A DNA stretch of 37,723 nucleotides, taken from positions 1 through 37,723 of IMG/VR virus record IMGVR_UViG_3300035703_000214; one strand, 5' to 3'. This DNA comes from a virus. Position 1 is the first letter of the stretch. Each line of letters begins with the position of its first letter. Positions 6,870 to 32,212 of the stretch are shown piece by piece. The notes below the pieces were generated by a model, which worked only from the letters and a program-made list of their open reading frames with translations, had not been told where the DNA came from and made no database searches. A program made the position numbers and the translations under genes.

Positions 6870-7547
6870 ATGGCATATACTCTTGCGGCAAATCTTAATC
6901 TTACAAATAAGCCCTGCTGTTCAGAAAACCCTTGCCAGCCTTGTTATAGTGTATCAATAGACGCAGAGTATTCATTTGAATGGAGTGATGTAGACCCAGA
7001 GACTAATGTTGGAACTACTCAATACTCAATAACTAAATTAAAAGGAGGGGCTACAATTTGCCCCGGTGATGGCAACACAATTAGCATTATTAAAGACTGT
7101 ATAACTGAAGGATATATTCGCACTGAATTTGCAGAGAATTATTTATGTTGCGGCGGGAATCTTGCCTTCATAAGAAACATTATATTCGATCTCTGTGATG
7201 AAGAAGAAACTTGTTCTTGTCTGGGAGATTTTACTGAAAACTTTCATTTTAATAAGGTTGGCGGGAGTGTTGCTGTTGGATTTACACCAACACTTCTTGA
7301 AAATGGAAAGTATAGTTTTAGCGTAGATTCCATTTTGTTTCAATCTGAACAAGTGAACACTTGGAGCAAACAGATAAACGCCAGAAATACCGGGATTTTA
7401 GAGTTCACTCAAGCCTATGGTTCGCCTCAATCTATAACACTTTATAATCAAATATATGGTGATAATATAACCATAGGAAGTGCATCATTTTCTGGAACAA
7501 TGGATGTTGGGGAAATAGTGTGTAGCATATGTAATGATGATCAATGA
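6870..7547 (+). CDS. Cysteine-rich virion-module protein, 225 aa
   Basis: The 225-residue protein has about fifteen cysteines, many in pairs (KPCCSENPCQPC near the N-terminus, CCGG around residue 92, CSCLG around residue 112, CSIC near the end). This suggests disulphides or metal binding. The remaining sequence is beta-rich and polar. No family is recognised. Position after the fibre-like gene and before a zinc-ribbon gene suggests a tail-tip or receptor-contact protein. It is visibly AT-richer than the 5208 gene, which could reflect horizontal exchange of host-range genes. Confidence 0.6.
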   Translation: MAYTLAANLNLTNKPCCSENPCQPCYSVSIDAEYSFEWSDVDPETNVGTTQYSITKLKGGATICPGDGNTISIIKDCITEGYIRTEFAENYLCCGGNLAFIRNIIFDLCDEEETCSCLGDFTENFHFNKVGGSVAVGFTPTLLENGKYSFSVDSILFQSEQVNTWSKQINARNTGILEFTQAYGSPQSITLYNQIYGDNITIGSASFSGTMDVGEIVCSICNDDQ

Positions 7548-7948
7548 TTATAAGGCTTAATTCTATTGTTGATTTACCGTCGGATAAGAAGGAAATTATC
7601 CTGCAAAATAGCAAAAAAATAAATAATGATTTAATTTTTGTAAATCCTAGAATTTACAAATTGACTTTATCTTCAGACACAAATCTTGGGCTTATCGAAA
7701 AAACAAAAAGCCTATCAAAATCATTGGGCAAATGGGCAACAACTGGGTTCACTTGTGTAAGCGAAAAGACATACAATGAGAGAGTCTCCATGTGCGATGC
7801 TTGTGAGTTTTGGCAACCAAGCGGGAATCTTGGTATGGGCAAATGCTTGAAGTGTGGATGTGCCAGAGGCAAGCTAAAGATTCCTCACGAAAAATGTCCT
7901 ATTGGGAAGTGGAACAGCGAACCCTTGACACCCCCTGCACCAGTATGA
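7544..7948 (+). CDS. Zinc-ribbon-like small protein, 134 aa
   Basis: Begins in an ATGA overlap with the previous stop. Residues 1-65 are AT-rich in sequence and unassigned. Residues 70-125 hold a Cys cluster of the form C-x2-C-x15-C-x2-C-x-C, then a further Cys before PIGKW, a pattern common in small phage proteins of the tail-lysis boundary and expected to bind zinc. The tail is Pro-rich. Function is unknown; it could be a tail-tip accessory or a regulator. It ends 4 bases inside the next small membrane gene. Confidence 0.6.
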   Translation: MIIRLNSIVDLPSDKKEIILQNSKKINNDLIFVNPRIYKLTLSSDTNLGLIEKTKSLSKSLGKWATTGFTCVSEKTYNERVSMCDACEFWQPSGNLGMGKCLKCGCARGKLKIPHEKCPIGKWNSEPLTPPAPV

Positions 7949-13751: not shown

Positions 13752-13957
13752 GCGTAAAAAGATTAAAACTATTAGAGGAGTTCCACGCAATCGTATCAAA
13801 AAGATTGAGAGATTTGTTTAAGGACTTCGACCATTCGAAGCGTGAGAACTATAAGGATATCATCAATCACTTGGACTACTCACATCGCATCACTAAAGAG
13901 CTATTGGAGCGAGCCAAGAAATATCAAAAGATCGATATGGAAAAGGCCAAGAAATGA
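13748..13957 (+). CDS. Hypothetical basic helical protein, 69 aa
   Basis: The small protein is Lys-rich and all-helical (KRLKLLEEFHAIVSKRL and on), with ATGA overlaps at both ends. No family. It directly precedes the replication initiator and could be an accessory of it, which is inferred from position only. Confidence 0.5.
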   Translation: MSVKRLKLLEEFHAIVSKRLRDLFKDFDHSKRENYKDIINHLDYSHRITKELLERAKKYQKIDMEKAKK

Positions 13958-14718
13958 GGCGGGATTCCTTCTGGTTTCCCTTTGAGCCTAACCGCTGGTT
14001 GGCTAATGAGAAGCTGGCATTAGTAAGCCTTGCCTCTAAAGGGCTATGGATTCACTTACTATGTCTTATGTATAAGGCCAACGCCGGCGGCAAGCTAACC
14101 ATCAACGGACACATACCTACCCCAGAACAAATCAGCAGAATGGTTGGGCAAGATGCCAAGCCTTTACTGCAAGAGCTTGAGGTTGCTGGGGTTTATGAGT
14201 TAAAGGATGGGGCAATCTATCACGGAGGAGTGGCCTCTGGACTGGCAAAGATGGAGGAAAGATCGGCTGGGTATGCACGAAGGATGAACCATAGATCGCC
14301 CATCTATGCACCATCTATGAACCATCTATGTACCAAAGATGAGCCATCTATTGTATATAATAATAGTAATAGTAATAGTAACAATAATAGTAAGATAGAT
14401 AACAAGAAAGAGAGAGAGGGCTTACGCCCCACGCTCGTTGAATGGATTGCCTTTGCTAAAGAGATCGGATGGAGGCAGACGGACGCAGAGTCGGCTTTTG
14501 ATTACTACCAGAGCAACGGATGGAAGGTCGGAGGCAAGGCATCGGTTAAGGACTGGCGAGCGTGTGCAAGGAACTGTCAGAGACGGAGCAACCAACAACC
14601 AAAAGGAAACAACCAACCAATGAAGAAACCAATCAAATCGGGGTGCGAATCCCCACCAACCTATAAATTAGCCGGATTCAACACTCATAGCGACTGGGTA
14701 GAAGCGGGGTGTCCGTGA
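13954..14718 (+). CDS. Replication initiator-like protein (lambda O / DnaD-type), 254 aa
   Basis: Residues 1-105 resemble the N-terminal winged-helix domain of phage replication organisers (SFWFPFEPNRWLANEKLALV through LLQELEVAGVYEL). A low-complexity Asn/Ser linker (about 133-150) leads to a C-terminal domain with W-x-x-F-A-K-E-I-G-W and Y-x-S-N-G-W-K-V-x-x-K-x-S-V-K-D-W, the pattern that ends many phage O-type proteins. The gene contains an 11-bp iteron array (14278-14354) and an AT-rich tract, as lambda O contains its origin. The last 32 residues follow an in-frame early start cassette and may be a fused mini-gene. Confidence 0.7.
   Translation: MRRDSFWFPFEPNRWLANEKLALVSLASKGLWIHLLCLMYKANAGGKLTINGHIPTPEQISRMVGQDAKPLLQELEVAGVYELKDGAIYHGGVASGLAKMEERSAGYARRMNHRSPIYAPSMNHLCTKDEPSIVYNNSNSNSNNNSKIDNKKEREGLRPTLVEWIAFAKEIGWRQTDAESAFDYYQSNGWKVGGKASVKDWRACARNCQRRSNQQPKGNNQPMKKPIKSGCESPPTYKLAGFNTHSDWVEAGCP
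14278..14354 (+). repeat. Seven-unit 11-bp iteron array (replication origin candidate)
   Basis: Consecutive units begin every 11 bases at 14278, 14289, 14300, 14311, 14322, 14333 and 14344. Three central units read CCATCTATG plus two variable bases, the last reads CCATCTATTGT, and the others are degenerate (such as CCAAAGATGAG). The 11-bp period is out of phase with the codons (the protein repeats only every 11 residues), so conservation acts on the DNA. Confidence 0.65.
14355..14400 (+). repeat. AT-rich trinucleotide-like tract (DNA unwinding element candidate)
   Basis: A run of TAATAG/TAACAA units follows the iterons without a gap and encodes the Asn-Ser linker. A tract of nearly only A and T beside iterons is the usual site of strand opening. 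Confidence 0.6.
14591..14619 (+). promoter_or_regulatory. Early gene-start cassette embedded in the initiator coding frame
   Basis: CAACCAAAAGGAAACAACCA is nearly identical to copy 3 (CAACCAAAAAGGAAAACAAC) and leads to ATG 14620, in frame with the initiator. It is either an internal start for a 32-residue product (MKKPIKSGCE...) or a relic of a separate gene now fused. Confidence 0.45.
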
Positions 14719-15116: not shown

Positions 15117-15379
15117 TCGCTATGGTAGAGGCAGAGCAGTTCGAGTTGCCTTTTATGAGGACAACGCATCCTCAAAAGACGGAAGGCCACGACCAGAACG
15201 CTCGCATCCTAGCCCACTTGCAATCGGGTCGCACACTCACGGCTCTGGAAGCGCTGGATTGGTTCAAGTGCTTCCGGTTGGCAAGCCGAGTGTGTGATTT
15301 GCGGAAGGCTGGTTACGATGTGCAGAAGCGAACAGTCAAAACCAACAGCGGAAAGAGTGTTGCGGAGTATTATTTATGA
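15113..15379 (+). CDS. Helix-turn-helix domain protein (HTH_39-like), 88 aa
   Basis: Residues 28-88 fit the small winged-helix family found in phages: ARILAHLQSGRTLTALEALD, then a C-F-R-L-A-S-R-V-x-D-L-R-K-A-G-Y recognition region, then a beta wing ending EYYL. Such proteins are commonly uncharacterised phage regulators. Overlaps ATGA at both ends place it in one operon with the initiator. Confidence 0.7.
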   Translation: MIAMVEAEQFELPFMRTTHPQKTEGHDQNARILAHLQSGRTLTALEALDWFKCFRLASRVCDLRKAGYDVQKRTVKTNSGKSVAEYYL

Positions 15380-15978
15380 GTTTTGGCGGCGATAGCTCAA
15401 CAGTAGAGCTTCCCCTATTCCAAGGGGAGGATGGCGGTGCAATTCCGACCTCGCCGCTCCAACTTTTGCTTCGTACTATTCGGCACGATACTGCATTTAA
15501 TTGTTATTGTAATTGGCACTATCTTGGGGGCAACGGATTTCTTGCGTCGTTTAATTTTGGAGCATATTTTAATGGACAAATACTTGGAGCAATATCTTAT
15601 GGAATACCAAACGCAAGAAACATAAAAGGAATCTACAACGAAAAAACACAATCAGAATTCTTTGAACTTACTAGGCTTGCACTATCCGAACTATGCCCGA
15701 AATTTTCAGAAAGCCGAGTTATCTCTGTTTCAATGAAGATGCTAAAGAAACTGAATCCTTTATTGCGTGGAGTAATTACATACGCCGACACCAAGCAGAA
15801 CCATACGGGAACAATATATAAAGCAAGTAATTTCACATATATTGGGCTTACAGCACAAAAAACAGACTTATTTGTTGATGGAAAAAAGATTGGCAAGTTA
15901 AAAGGGGTAAAGTACAGCGAAATAAAAGGAGAGTGGAGAAAGAGATCGAGAAAACATTTATTCGTTAGGTACTTTTAG
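15376..15978 (+). CDS. Mom-like DNA modification protein (GNAT-related), 200 aa
   Basis: The order of motifs matches phage Mom-family proteins: H-Y near residue 48, GAYFNGQILGAISYG (62-76), ELTRLAL (about 97-103), a run SVSMKMLKKLNPLLRGVITYADTKQ in segments (127-147), and N-H-T-G-T-I-Y-K-A-S-N-F-x-Y-I-G (about 148-163). Mom alters adenine in phage DNA and protects against restriction. From about 15480 on the gene is much AT-richer than its neighbours, suggesting later acquisition. The first 30 residues look unrelated and may come from the upstream host sequence. Confidence 0.75.
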   Translation: MSFGGDSSTVELPLFQGEDGGAIPTSPLQLLLRTIRHDTAFNCYCNWHYLGGNGFLASFNFGAYFNGQILGAISYGIPNARNIKGIYNEKTQSEFFELTRLALSELCPKFSESRVISVSMKMLKKLNPLLRGVITYADTKQNHTGTIYKASNFTYIGLTAQKTDLFVDGKKIGKLKGVKYSEIKGEWRKRSRKHLFVRYF

Positions 15979-18560: not shown

Positions 18561-19742
18561 ATGAAATACCCCTGCTTGCTTACCAAAAAAATCAACGAAA
18601 TTTCTTCGGCAAAATATAACCCAAGAAAAATTACAGACGAGGCGATGGGTCGATTGACCAAGAGCCTAGCGGAGTTCGGAAACATCCAGCCGATCACTTG
18701 GAATGTGCGAACTGGGAATGTGGTTGGAGGCCACCAGAGGCTCAAGGTCTATAAGGCGATGGGCAAAACCGAGGTGGATGTTTGGGCGGTCGATCTGGAT
18801 GAGCAGAAGGAGAAGGCGGCCAACATCGCCCTCAACAAGTTAAGCGGAGAATTCGATATGCCGATGCTTAAAGACATCCTAGAGGAAATCGATACTGGCG
18901 ATCTAGATATGGAAATTACTGGGTTCGGGATGGATGAGATTGCATTGATGATGGAGGACGCACACCCAGAAGTCACCGAGGACGAAGTGCCAGAAGTTCC
19001 AGTTGATGCGATTACCAAGCTGGGCGACTTGTGGCTTCTTGGGGAACACCGGGTGCTTTGTGGCGACTCAACAAGCGAGGCAGATGTGTCTAGGCTTATG
19101 AATGGCGAGAAAGCAGATATGGTTTTCACCGATCCTCCTTATGGCGTTAATTATGATGGAGGACACGCAACAGATAAGCGTAGGGAAAAACTTAAAAACG
19201 ATAACTCCACGCTAATCTACGATGACTCTGTTCCAAATATGTTTAGGCACTCGAAAGATGATGCCGCACTATATCTTTGGTTTGCGGATAAGTCTGGATA
19301 TAAAATTCTACAAGCTCTCCAAGCAAATAACTATGTGATTCGCAGTTGGCTCATTTGGAATAAAAATCAGGCTCAATTCGGAGCTATTGGATCGCAATAT
19401 AAACAGAAGCACGAACCCTGTTTATATTGTTTCAAAAAAGGAAAAAGTCCATATTGGAACGGCCCGAACAATGAGGTTTCTGTTTGGGACGAAAAGCGTT
19501 CAAGAATAAACGAGTTTCACCCGACGCAAAAGCCGGTAGAACTATCTGCAAGGGCATTGGCAAATTCTTGCCCAGCAAGCGGGCTGGTTCTCGATCTATT
19601 TTTGGGTTCTGGTGCAACTCTTATTGGTGCAGAGCAAACCAAACGCAAATGCTATGGAATGGAAATCAGCCCCAACTACTGCGATGTGATTGTGAAGCGA
19701 TGGGAAAACCTTACTGGCAAAAAGGCCACGCTTGCCAAATGA
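18561..19742 (+). CDS. ParB-like domain fused to a DNA (adenine or cytosine-N4) methyltransferase, 393 aa
   Basis: Residues 8-85 form a ParB/sulfiredoxin-like N-domain (YNPRKITDEAMGRLTKSL, then NVVGGHQRLKVYKAM, the GGHQR box). From residue 150 the methyltransferase follows: LLGEHRVLCGDS, the catalytic TDPPYG at 190-195 with Asp191, and the SAM-binding LDLFLGSGATLIGAE with FLGSG at 347-351. The DPPY motif precedes the SAM-binding motif, so it is class beta. It methylates amino groups of A or C in a sequence-dependent way and may protect phage DNA. Such fusions occur next to terminase genes in many phages. Confidence 0.8.
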   Translation: MKYPCLLTKKINEISSAKYNPRKITDEAMGRLTKSLAEFGNIQPITWNVRTGNVVGGHQRLKVYKAMGKTEVDVWAVDLDEQKEKAANIALNKLSGEFDMPMLKDILEEIDTGDLDMEITGFGMDEIALMMEDAHPEVTEDEVPEVPVDAITKLGDLWLLGEHRVLCGDSTSEADVSRLMNGEKADMVFTDPPYGVNYDGGHATDKRREKLKNDNSTLIYDDSVPNMFRHSKDDAALYLWFADKSGYKILQALQANNYVIRSWLIWNKNQAQFGAIGSQYKQKHEPCLYCFKKGKSPYWNGPNNEVSVWDEKRSRINEFHPTQKPVELSARALANSCPASGLVLDLFLGSGATLIGAEQTKRKCYGMEISPNYCDVIVKRWENLTGKKATLAK

Positions 19743-30562: not shown

Positions 30563-32212
30563 ATGAAACACGAAATCTCACTCTATCTCATAGCTGGCAA
30601 TGAAGAAGAATACATTGAGCGTTGCCTCAAATCGTTCTCAATCGCAAAAGAAATGGTTGTTTGTATTTCTAGGGGGTCAGCTACGCCCGACAAGACCGAG
30701 GAAATTGCCAAAGGATTGGGGGCGAAGATCGTTCACTACCAGAATAAAAGAACTGATTGGAATCACATAGATGACTTTGCCACGGCAAGGAACACGGCTC
30801 TTGAGGCTTGCTCAAGCGAGTGGTGTTTATGGGTCGATGCTGACGATGTAATGGCCGAGGATGGGGCGAAGGTTGTCGAGGAGGCTATTGACCTTGCCAT
30901 TCAAAAAGACGCTCACCTAGTGGCGTTAAAATACAATGTGGACAATGCTGGACTTATTCCCCTCCGAGAAGAAATTTCCAAGAGGGGCACTTGTAGCTGG
31001 AAGAACCGAGTTCACGAAATGCTGGTTTGCAAAGAGCCAAACAAGACGATTGGCGTGGATAAGATTTTCAGAATCCATAAGCCTCACGGATACAAGCCAA
31101 GGAGTGCAGAGAGGAACTTGAACATCTTGGCCGACACGCTTGCCCCAGCCGCCAACTCCCTTTACTACCAAGCCCAAGAGTATTTCTTGTCTGGGCAGAT
31201 TGAAAAGTGCATTGATTCAAGTATGCGAGCCTTGGCATTCCCAGAGCTAGAGGACACGCTTCGCTACGATGTGCTTTGCAACTTGGGTAGGGTAGTTCCA
31301 GAAAATGAGAGGCTTGCTTATCTTGGACAAGCCGTAGCCCTGCAACCCGATAGGCGAGAGGCTCATTTCTATATCGCAAATCATTGGTCGGGCAAGGGAA
31401 GCTGGATAAAGGCTTATGGGGCAGTTCGTTCTTGTCTGACCCTGCATCGCCCCAAAGCTCACTACTGGAATCTGGTCGAGGCAATCTACAACTGGCAAGC
31501 GATGGACTTATACGAGACGGCTTCGGTGTGCGTTGGAGAAACTGCCGAGGCTGAAAAGATTAAGAAGATGCGACCAGCACCAAAGATTAGCATCGTCCAC
31601 GCTACAAGGGGTAGGCCACAGATTGCTTGGCAGAGGCGATGGATGTGGCTTTCTTTGGCCGAGAAGCCCCTAGAGATTGAGTGGCTATTTATGGTCGATC
31701 ATAACGACCCAACCGACTACACCCCCCACCAAGCCATTAGGTGCAATCCGGGCGGGATGATTAACGCTTGGAACGCAGGGGCAAAAATAGCCAAAGGGGA
31801 CATTGTTATTCAAATGAGCGATGACTGGACACCACCCCGCCATTGGGATGCCCTAATTTCGACCGCTATTGGGGATACAACGCAAGAGAAAGTGCTGGCA
31901 GTATCAGATGGGCTACGGCAAGACAAGCTCCTATGTATGGCGATTTTAACGCAATCTAGGCTGAAGAAGCAAGGGCATCTATTCCACCCCGACTATCAAG
32001 AGTCAGATGGCATCTATTCAGACAATGAGTTCACAGATAGAGCCTATGCAGAACAAGCCGTAGTTGAGGCTAGACATATCCAATTCAAGCACGATAACCC
32101 TATGTTTAATGGCGGCCAACCAGACGAACAGCTAAAGAACCACAACAAACCAGAATTCTACGAGAAAGGAAAAGCGATTTATGAAAAACGCAAAGCAAAT
32201 AATTGGATGTAG
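30563..32212 (+). CDS. Two-domain glycosyltransferase with TPR-like middle, 549 aa
   Basis: N-terminal GT-A domain: SLYLIAGNEEEYIERCLKSF and a DxD-like DADD (92-95). The middle (about 205-310) is helical with TPR spacing (AQEYFLSGQIEKCIDSSMRA, then GQAVALQPDRREAHFYIAN). The C-terminal second GT-A domain starts near residue 338 (ISIVHATRGRPQIAW) and has MSDDW (Asp420/421). Family 2 enzymes transfer sugars from nucleotide donors to glycans or proteins. No membrane anchor; cytosolic. It opens the sugar cassette. Confidence 0.75.
   Translation: MKHEISLYLIAGNEEEYIERCLKSFSIAKEMVVCISRGSATPDKTEEIAKGLGAKIVHYQNKRTDWNHIDDFATARNTALEACSSEWCLWVDADDVMAEDGAKVVEEAIDLAIQKDAHLVALKYNVDNAGLIPLREEISKRGTCSWKNRVHEMLVCKEPNKTIGVDKIFRIHKPHGYKPRSAERNLNILADTLAPAANSLYYQAQEYFLSGQIEKCIDSSMRALAFPELEDTLRYDVLCNLGRVVPENERLAYLGQAVALQPDRREAHFYIANHWSGKGSWIKAYGAVRSCLTLHRPKAHYWNLVEAIYNWQAMDLYETASVCVGETAEAEKIKKMRPAPKISIVHATRGRPQIAWQRRWMWLSLAEKPLEIEWLFMVDHNDPTDYTPHQAIRCNPGGMINAWNAGAKIAKGDIVIQMSDDWTPPRHWDALISTAIGDTTQEKVLAVSDGLRQDKLLCMAILTQSRLKKQGHLFHPDYQESDGIYSDNEFTDRAYAEQAVVEARHIQFKHDNPMFNGGQPDEQLKNHNKPEFYEKGKAIYEKRKANNWM

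Follow-up and report, generated by a model that had tools for sequence, protein, structure and literature searches.

The closest known system to the phage locus analysed here is the Rep initiator of plasmid pSK41 together with the pPR9 chimera. As described in PMC5703833, the origin of pSK41 lies centrally within rep, where four Rep boxes are bound by an N-terminal winged helix; the linker encoded by the origin is dispensable and the C-terminal domain contacts the host DnaG. In pPR9, according to the same source, about 500 bp comprising the N-terminal domain and the origin have been replaced by a phage-like version with retention of the C-terminal domain (PMC5703833). RepA_N iterons are reported to be semi-palindromes of 8-9 bp (PMC7145576). 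Equally, in phage lambda the iterons and an AT-rich region are placed in the middle of gene O, with the iteron number varying among lambdoid O genes and lengthening the protein, such that two extra iterons correspond to 13 extra residues (PMC7466680). In phage SPP1, oriL within gene 38 is described to consist of direct repeats and an AT-rich unwinding element bound by gp38 (PMC6316719), and RepA of the PLE satellites of Vibrio cholerae is presented as a winged-helix initiator that binds repeats in a phage-related element (PMC7145576).

The window considered in this study is a stretch of viral DNA of 37,723 nucleotides (IMG/VR record IMGVR_UViG_3300035703_000214). With a probability of roughly 85%, its gene at 13954-14718 encodes a phage replication initiator whose origin would be the repeat array plus AT-rich tract (14289-14412) inside the gene itself. 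Judged by the account in PMC5703833, the pPR9 chimera represents the same kind of exchange of N-domain and origin as observed in the family of the window. On the other hand, pSK41 Rep is a plasmid initiator with another C-terminal domain, the window protein does not match any Pfam family at E 0.05 including RepA_N, and the units in the window are 11 bp apart and of mixed orientation. As in lambda O, iterons and an AT-rich tract reside inside the initiator gene, but the units are spaced by 11 bp and the window protein does not match the O-like profile phrog_345, although a Vibrio phage relative sharing the C-terminal domain does. Lambda iterons are longer, with 18-20 bp. By profile the window protein thus stands outside the lambda O family, but it would work like O. 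SPP1 possesses its own loader, helicase and second origin, whereas a PHROGs scan of 30 window ORFs, a part of the total, detected neither a helicase nor a loader nor a primase; the PLE RepA iterons are located in a noncoding region, in contrast to the units within the gene in the window. Phage replication modules have reportedly been treated by Weigel and Seitz in 2006. In the open-licence literature, a search of weak scope, no paper on 11-bp iterons inside phage initiator genes was found. The original prediction that the family would be new is nevertheless too strong, as pSK41 Rep, lambda O and SPP1 gp38 are established cases of an initiator gene that harbours the origin; known is the architecture within the gene, and new are the spacing of one helical turn, the mixed orientation and the repeated swapping.

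The gene (plus strand, 254 aa) was assigned from its ORF, the PHROG matches of the C-terminal part and the N-termini of relatives. An AF2 model predicts an N-terminal winged-helix domain (residues 1-113, 13954-14292, plus strand) as putative iteron reader, with pLDDT about 80-90 across residues 21-100, followed by a low-confidence segment (residues 111-156), which coincides with the array and the AT tract, and by C-terminal helices. The C-terminal domain (14416-14715, plus strand), conserved in alignments A1 and A2, is a predicted recruiter of replication proteins; this part of the protein matches only phrog_15768 and phrog_28809 (E 0.01), both of unknown function. A function and an origin are hereby proposed for an initiator family whose C-terminal domain is listed by PHROGs as unknown (phrog_15768). 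Relatives with the same C-terminal domain have N-termini that match the O-like phrog_345, phrog_1408, phrog_16167 or DUF1376/Lin1244, with L163 as one relative matching phrog_345. In named phages, related proteins have replication genes as neighbours: a Pseudanabaena phage protein related via the N-domain adjoins a replicative helicase gene, a Bacteroides phage relative annotated as replisome organizer adjoins a DnaC-like loader, a Flavobacterium phage relative adjoins a primase gene and a Vibrio phage relative adjoins a DnaB-like helicase gene.

Units of 11 bases start at 14278, 14289, 14300, 14311, 14322, 14333 and 14344 as read from the window sequence and, as a tandem-repeat check, TRF places one period-11 array, with a score of 62, at 14300-14351 and detects none elsewhere in the whole window, so that the predicted succession of seven units has been borne out. 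Six units with exact 11-bp spacing (14289-14352) are convincing, of which those starting at 14300, 14311 and 14322 consist of CCATCTATG plus two bases and contain the iteron core CATCTATG on the plus strand at 14301-14308, 14312-14319 and 14323-14330. The unit at 14344, CCATCTATTGT, has a plus-strand core with one mismatch (14345-14352). The units at 14289 (CCATAGATCGC, core at 14290-14297) and 14333 (CCAAAGATGAG, core at 14334-14341) had been considered degenerate along with 14278, but are inverted near-matches on the minus strand with one mismatch each to CATAGATG, the reverse complement of CATCTATG; degenerate is an adequate description only of the weak seventh unit CGAAGGATGAA (14278-14288), which has three mismatches to the core, as seen in L003, which carries an identical gene, and is probably not a site. 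The repeat is thus best viewed as an 8-bp near-palindrome, CATCTATG, whose copies point either way and are separated by 3 bp, the order along the array being minus, plus, plus, plus, minus, plus. The highest lag-11 match amounts to 45 per 66-base stretch, a score reached by 0 of 5000 synonymous-codon shuffles (mean 32.1, maximum 43) and by 0 of 3000 whole-codon shuffles of the gene. Among 53 ORFs tested, the initiator gene ranks first by lag-11 score and by z. In a shorter stretch of 44 bases, 1 of 500 shuffles scores as high as the window gene. What sets the array apart is the spacing alone, since the single motif CATCTATG is not enriched in the window (35 sites with at most one mismatch against 26.5 expected, equalled by 8 of 100 shuffles).

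Directly after the array, as predicted, follows an AT-rich tract with 19.7% GC (14352-14412), the candidate unwinding element. Over 50 bp, the tract is equalled in AT content by a single further place of the window (7593-7670); this most AT-rich stretch of the window lies within the ORF 7544-7948, and TRF reports no iterons there. A turning point of the GC skew at the array, on the other hand, was not observed: the cumulative skew climbs through the entire window without a turn at 14.3 kb, gives no support, does not locate an origin and is uninformative.

A scan of viral contigs yielded 101 relatives, 80 of which were kept and 77 of these read together with the window upon exclusion of L032, L066 and L082 as partial; further loci, many on the same contigs, were added by scans with the C-terminal domain and the N-domains of class II and class I. 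Two scans of genome contigs (A3, A4) for hosts or prophages gave no relatives. Two classes of N-domains can be distinguished, which are homologous (36% identity, hhalign probability 99.7) and have similar models with a winged helix, a low-confidence linker over the array and C-terminal helices. Class I (FWF.FEPNRWL...) is associated with CATCTATG/CATAGATG units. Class II (W[IL]KF....WLSDE...), with a diverged N-terminal domain and a C-terminal domain as in class I, is associated with units of the GTAACG, GTCACG, GTAATG, GTAACC, GAAACG or GTCCA type every 11 bp with an occasional step of 12 bp. In the relatives, the 11-bp period persists, in all three reading frames, as the motif drifts. Own-motif arrays, defined by at least two pairs spaced by exactly 11 bp, were found in 105 of 122 distinct genes (50 of 59 in class I and 55 of 63 in class II, duplicates removed), counts that are descriptive because the class motifs had themselves been derived from these sequences. 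Loss of the period in relatives that conserve the protein, which the original prediction had named as a result speaking against it, is consequently absent from most genes. All nine class I misses display drifted 11-bp arrays upon inspection, and eight class II misses (L147-L149, L231, L235, L237, L239, L242) are without any array, indicating that the protein can exist without it. In L147-L149, L231, L235, L237 and L239, a class II-like N-domain is followed by a linker without array; if the proposed model holds, the origin of these phages must lie elsewhere. The lag-11 test on 44 bases of single genes is weak in several relatives (L056, 122 of 500 shuffles; L058, 97; L060, 236), partly because inverted units mismatch direct ones. 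As a separate observation, L255, L273-L275 and L291 combine a class I N-domain with a variant C-terminal domain (VGWMIGNKPMKNWKLCARTCQRR), a possible sign of one more recombination point within the C-terminal region.

The class I genes read are AT-rich at the position of the tract. In class II, a 7-bp repeat of the AGAAGCT type takes the place of the AT tract, and an AT-rich melting element is therefore not general; as is evident from the repeat, the element to be melted can be of another kind or sit elsewhere. In the class II loci L061, L072 and L116, the AGAAGCT/AGAGGCT repeat after the iterons codes for KLEARSQKLEAR.

Structural comparison places N-domains of staphylococcal plasmid RepA proteins at the top for both classes, barely above other winged helices. 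For class I, the list is headed by 4pql, 5kbj and 4pt7 (Z 6.5-6.8, 78 aligned residues, rmsd 2.9-3.2), with CRP, NtcA and LexA within 1 Z of these top matches; for the class II model, 4pql gives Z 8.1 with 88 aligned residues and rmsd 3.7. As matches with Z 6.3-6.8 and 7.5-8.1 are at the common winged-helix level, the modelled resemblance to RepA N-domains, tied with common winged helices, is suggestive. Foldseek with the window model against the PDB retrieved nothing under E 0.001, and the N-domain profile against sequences of solved structures nothing below E 0.8. Among viral proteins, the fold of the class II model matches replication initiators, replisome organizers, DUF1376 and Lin1244-type proteins. 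Winged helices are common in repressors, and the closeness of CRP, NtcA and LexA in the structural lists would equally be compatible with an array that serves as operator, by which the protein controls transcription of its own operon with replication beginning elsewhere. Yet we regard this reading as improbable, since the related proteins match replication-initiation profiles and adjoin the helicase, loader or primase genes mentioned above, and the sites are located in the middle of the gene beside an AT tract rather than at a promoter.

That the repeats would act on the DNA level, as assumed for an origin, is supported by their variability. In class I, the cores are less diverse than the spacers within codon positions (0.097 vs 0.302 in 24 distinct arrays), a difference obtained in 7 of 10000 permutations. 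For class II, the same comparison, made separately for three register groups, revealed no difference between cores and spacers (2091, 5783 and 2966 of 10000 permutations), which we interpret by cores that drift together. In fact, class II cores are shared within arrays (0.803 vs 0.644, 0 of 5000 shuffles; 13 of 15 representatives), with the spacer control not being significant in the 13 well-registered representatives (331 of 5000 shuffles). With all 15 representatives, which include L147 without array and L121 out of register, the cores remain at 0 of 5000 and the spacers are mildly raised (30 of 5000). Orientation-free similarity within class I arrays likewise exceeds shuffles (0 of 2000; seven representatives). 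In L113 and L117, the motif has changed to CAAGATG and the inverted unit to CATCTTG, a concerted change which suggests that the same protein would read the inverted units. A low-complexity linker or replication slippage devoid of a DNA function would be in line with the low-confidence prediction of the segment, as for disorder, and with the proteins of L029, L040 and L043, in which exactly 11 residues (33 bp, three units) are missing in the alignment. Nonetheless, this explanation is very improbable, as the period is not divisible by three, the conservation of class I cores holds within codon positions, inverted units track the motif and the iteron types never mix between the classes.

The iteron type of the other class occurs in 0 of 122 genes, and this zero cross-occurrence together with the tree of the C-terminal domain constitutes the test of co-inheritance of iterons and N-domain. 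On this tree, built by a quick method from 110 distinct DNA segments with 168 columns, a short segment which may itself recombine, there are at least 16 switches of N-domain class, at least seven of which are forced by starred, strongly supported branches, against a shuffled mean of 36.7. In a blastn comparison of the window with 20 hand-chosen loci, 12 of them class II, 11 of the 12 class II loci lose their identity with the window at 13906-13957 (L130 lacks a match immediately upstream) and all 12 regain it at 14392-14440. The break of identity near the start codon and its return in or after the AT tract indicate that N-domain and iterons have been exchanged as a block, delimited by the breakpoints to 13958-14391. 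As read from these alignments, the swap extends over the N-domain and the iterons and includes the AT tract for the most part or entirely. The repeats are accordingly inherited together with the DNA-binding domain, as looked for in an iteron origin within its gene. Co-inheritance of N-domain and sites would look identical for an operator. It argues, on the other hand, against an array that is a partition or other nucleoprotein site of a different protein such as the ParB-like protein at 18561-19742. Partition sites may consist of iterons and the window does encode a DNA methyltransferase fused to a ParB-like domain at this position, but the iteron type tracks the N-domain of the same gene and, in other phages, the period is a mark of initiator-like genes and not of control ORFs, so that such a site is hardly to be expected here.

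Considering the array, the kept period and the co-inheritance of N-domain and iterons, an initiator-bound origin within the gene, as originally predicted, appears as the best reading. We infer binding, opening, recruitment and origin activity to proceed as follows. The N-terminal winged helix would bind the 8-bp near-palindromic units in whichever orientation they occur; one helical turn apart, these would be presented on one face of the DNA, with several protomers aligning side by side on the array. Subsequently, the adjoining AT tract would be opened and the C-terminal domain might recruit the helicase, the loader or other parts of the replisome, with melting and recruitment proposed by analogy with lambda O, SPP1 gp38 and pSK41 Rep. 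Origin specificity would consequently move between phages as a cassette, and the dozens of paired binding domains and sites provide material on how winged-helix initiators change their DNA specificity. More tentatively, many phage initiators might carry such a self-contained specificity cassette, a winged helix with its own sites spaced by one turn in either orientation and running out of frame through a disordered linker. The protomers might then form a continuous filament on one face into the melting region, unlike on the longer iterons of lambda, and by exchanging the cassette phages might alter the specificity of their origins, perhaps as a way around replication incompatibility.

A wider survey covered 140 loci from two more distant relatives with 92 distinct initiator-like ORFs, some of which may not be initiators as they were chosen by similarity to the two relatives, and 74 control ORFs taken from those loci. 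Lag 10 or 11 exceeded all 200 synonymous shuffles in 43 of the 92 initiator-like ORFs versus 0 of 74 controls; for lags 13, 14, 16 or 17 this was observed in three initiator-like ORFs and no control. A period of 10-11 bp inside an initiator-like gene could thus help to find origins in unannotated phages. A 5-bp repeat present in 25 of 36 lag-10 genes is probably a separate tract; L412, L410, L418 and similar O-like relatives carry such a 5-bp tract (GATAA/GATTA or AGAAG type) in the linker. In some linkers of named phages, repeats of 11 or 12 bp can be seen by eye. In Flavobacterium phage morran9-1 (L162:1501-2184), the peptide NATALNP is found in both N-domain and linker, and repeat DNA consequently occurs also in the domain-coding part. 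Beyond the initiator gene, the window encodes a Mom-like DNA modification protein (Pfam Mom, phrog_1384) two genes downstream (15376-15978) and a long protein matched by two glycosyltransferase families in tandem (30563-32212).
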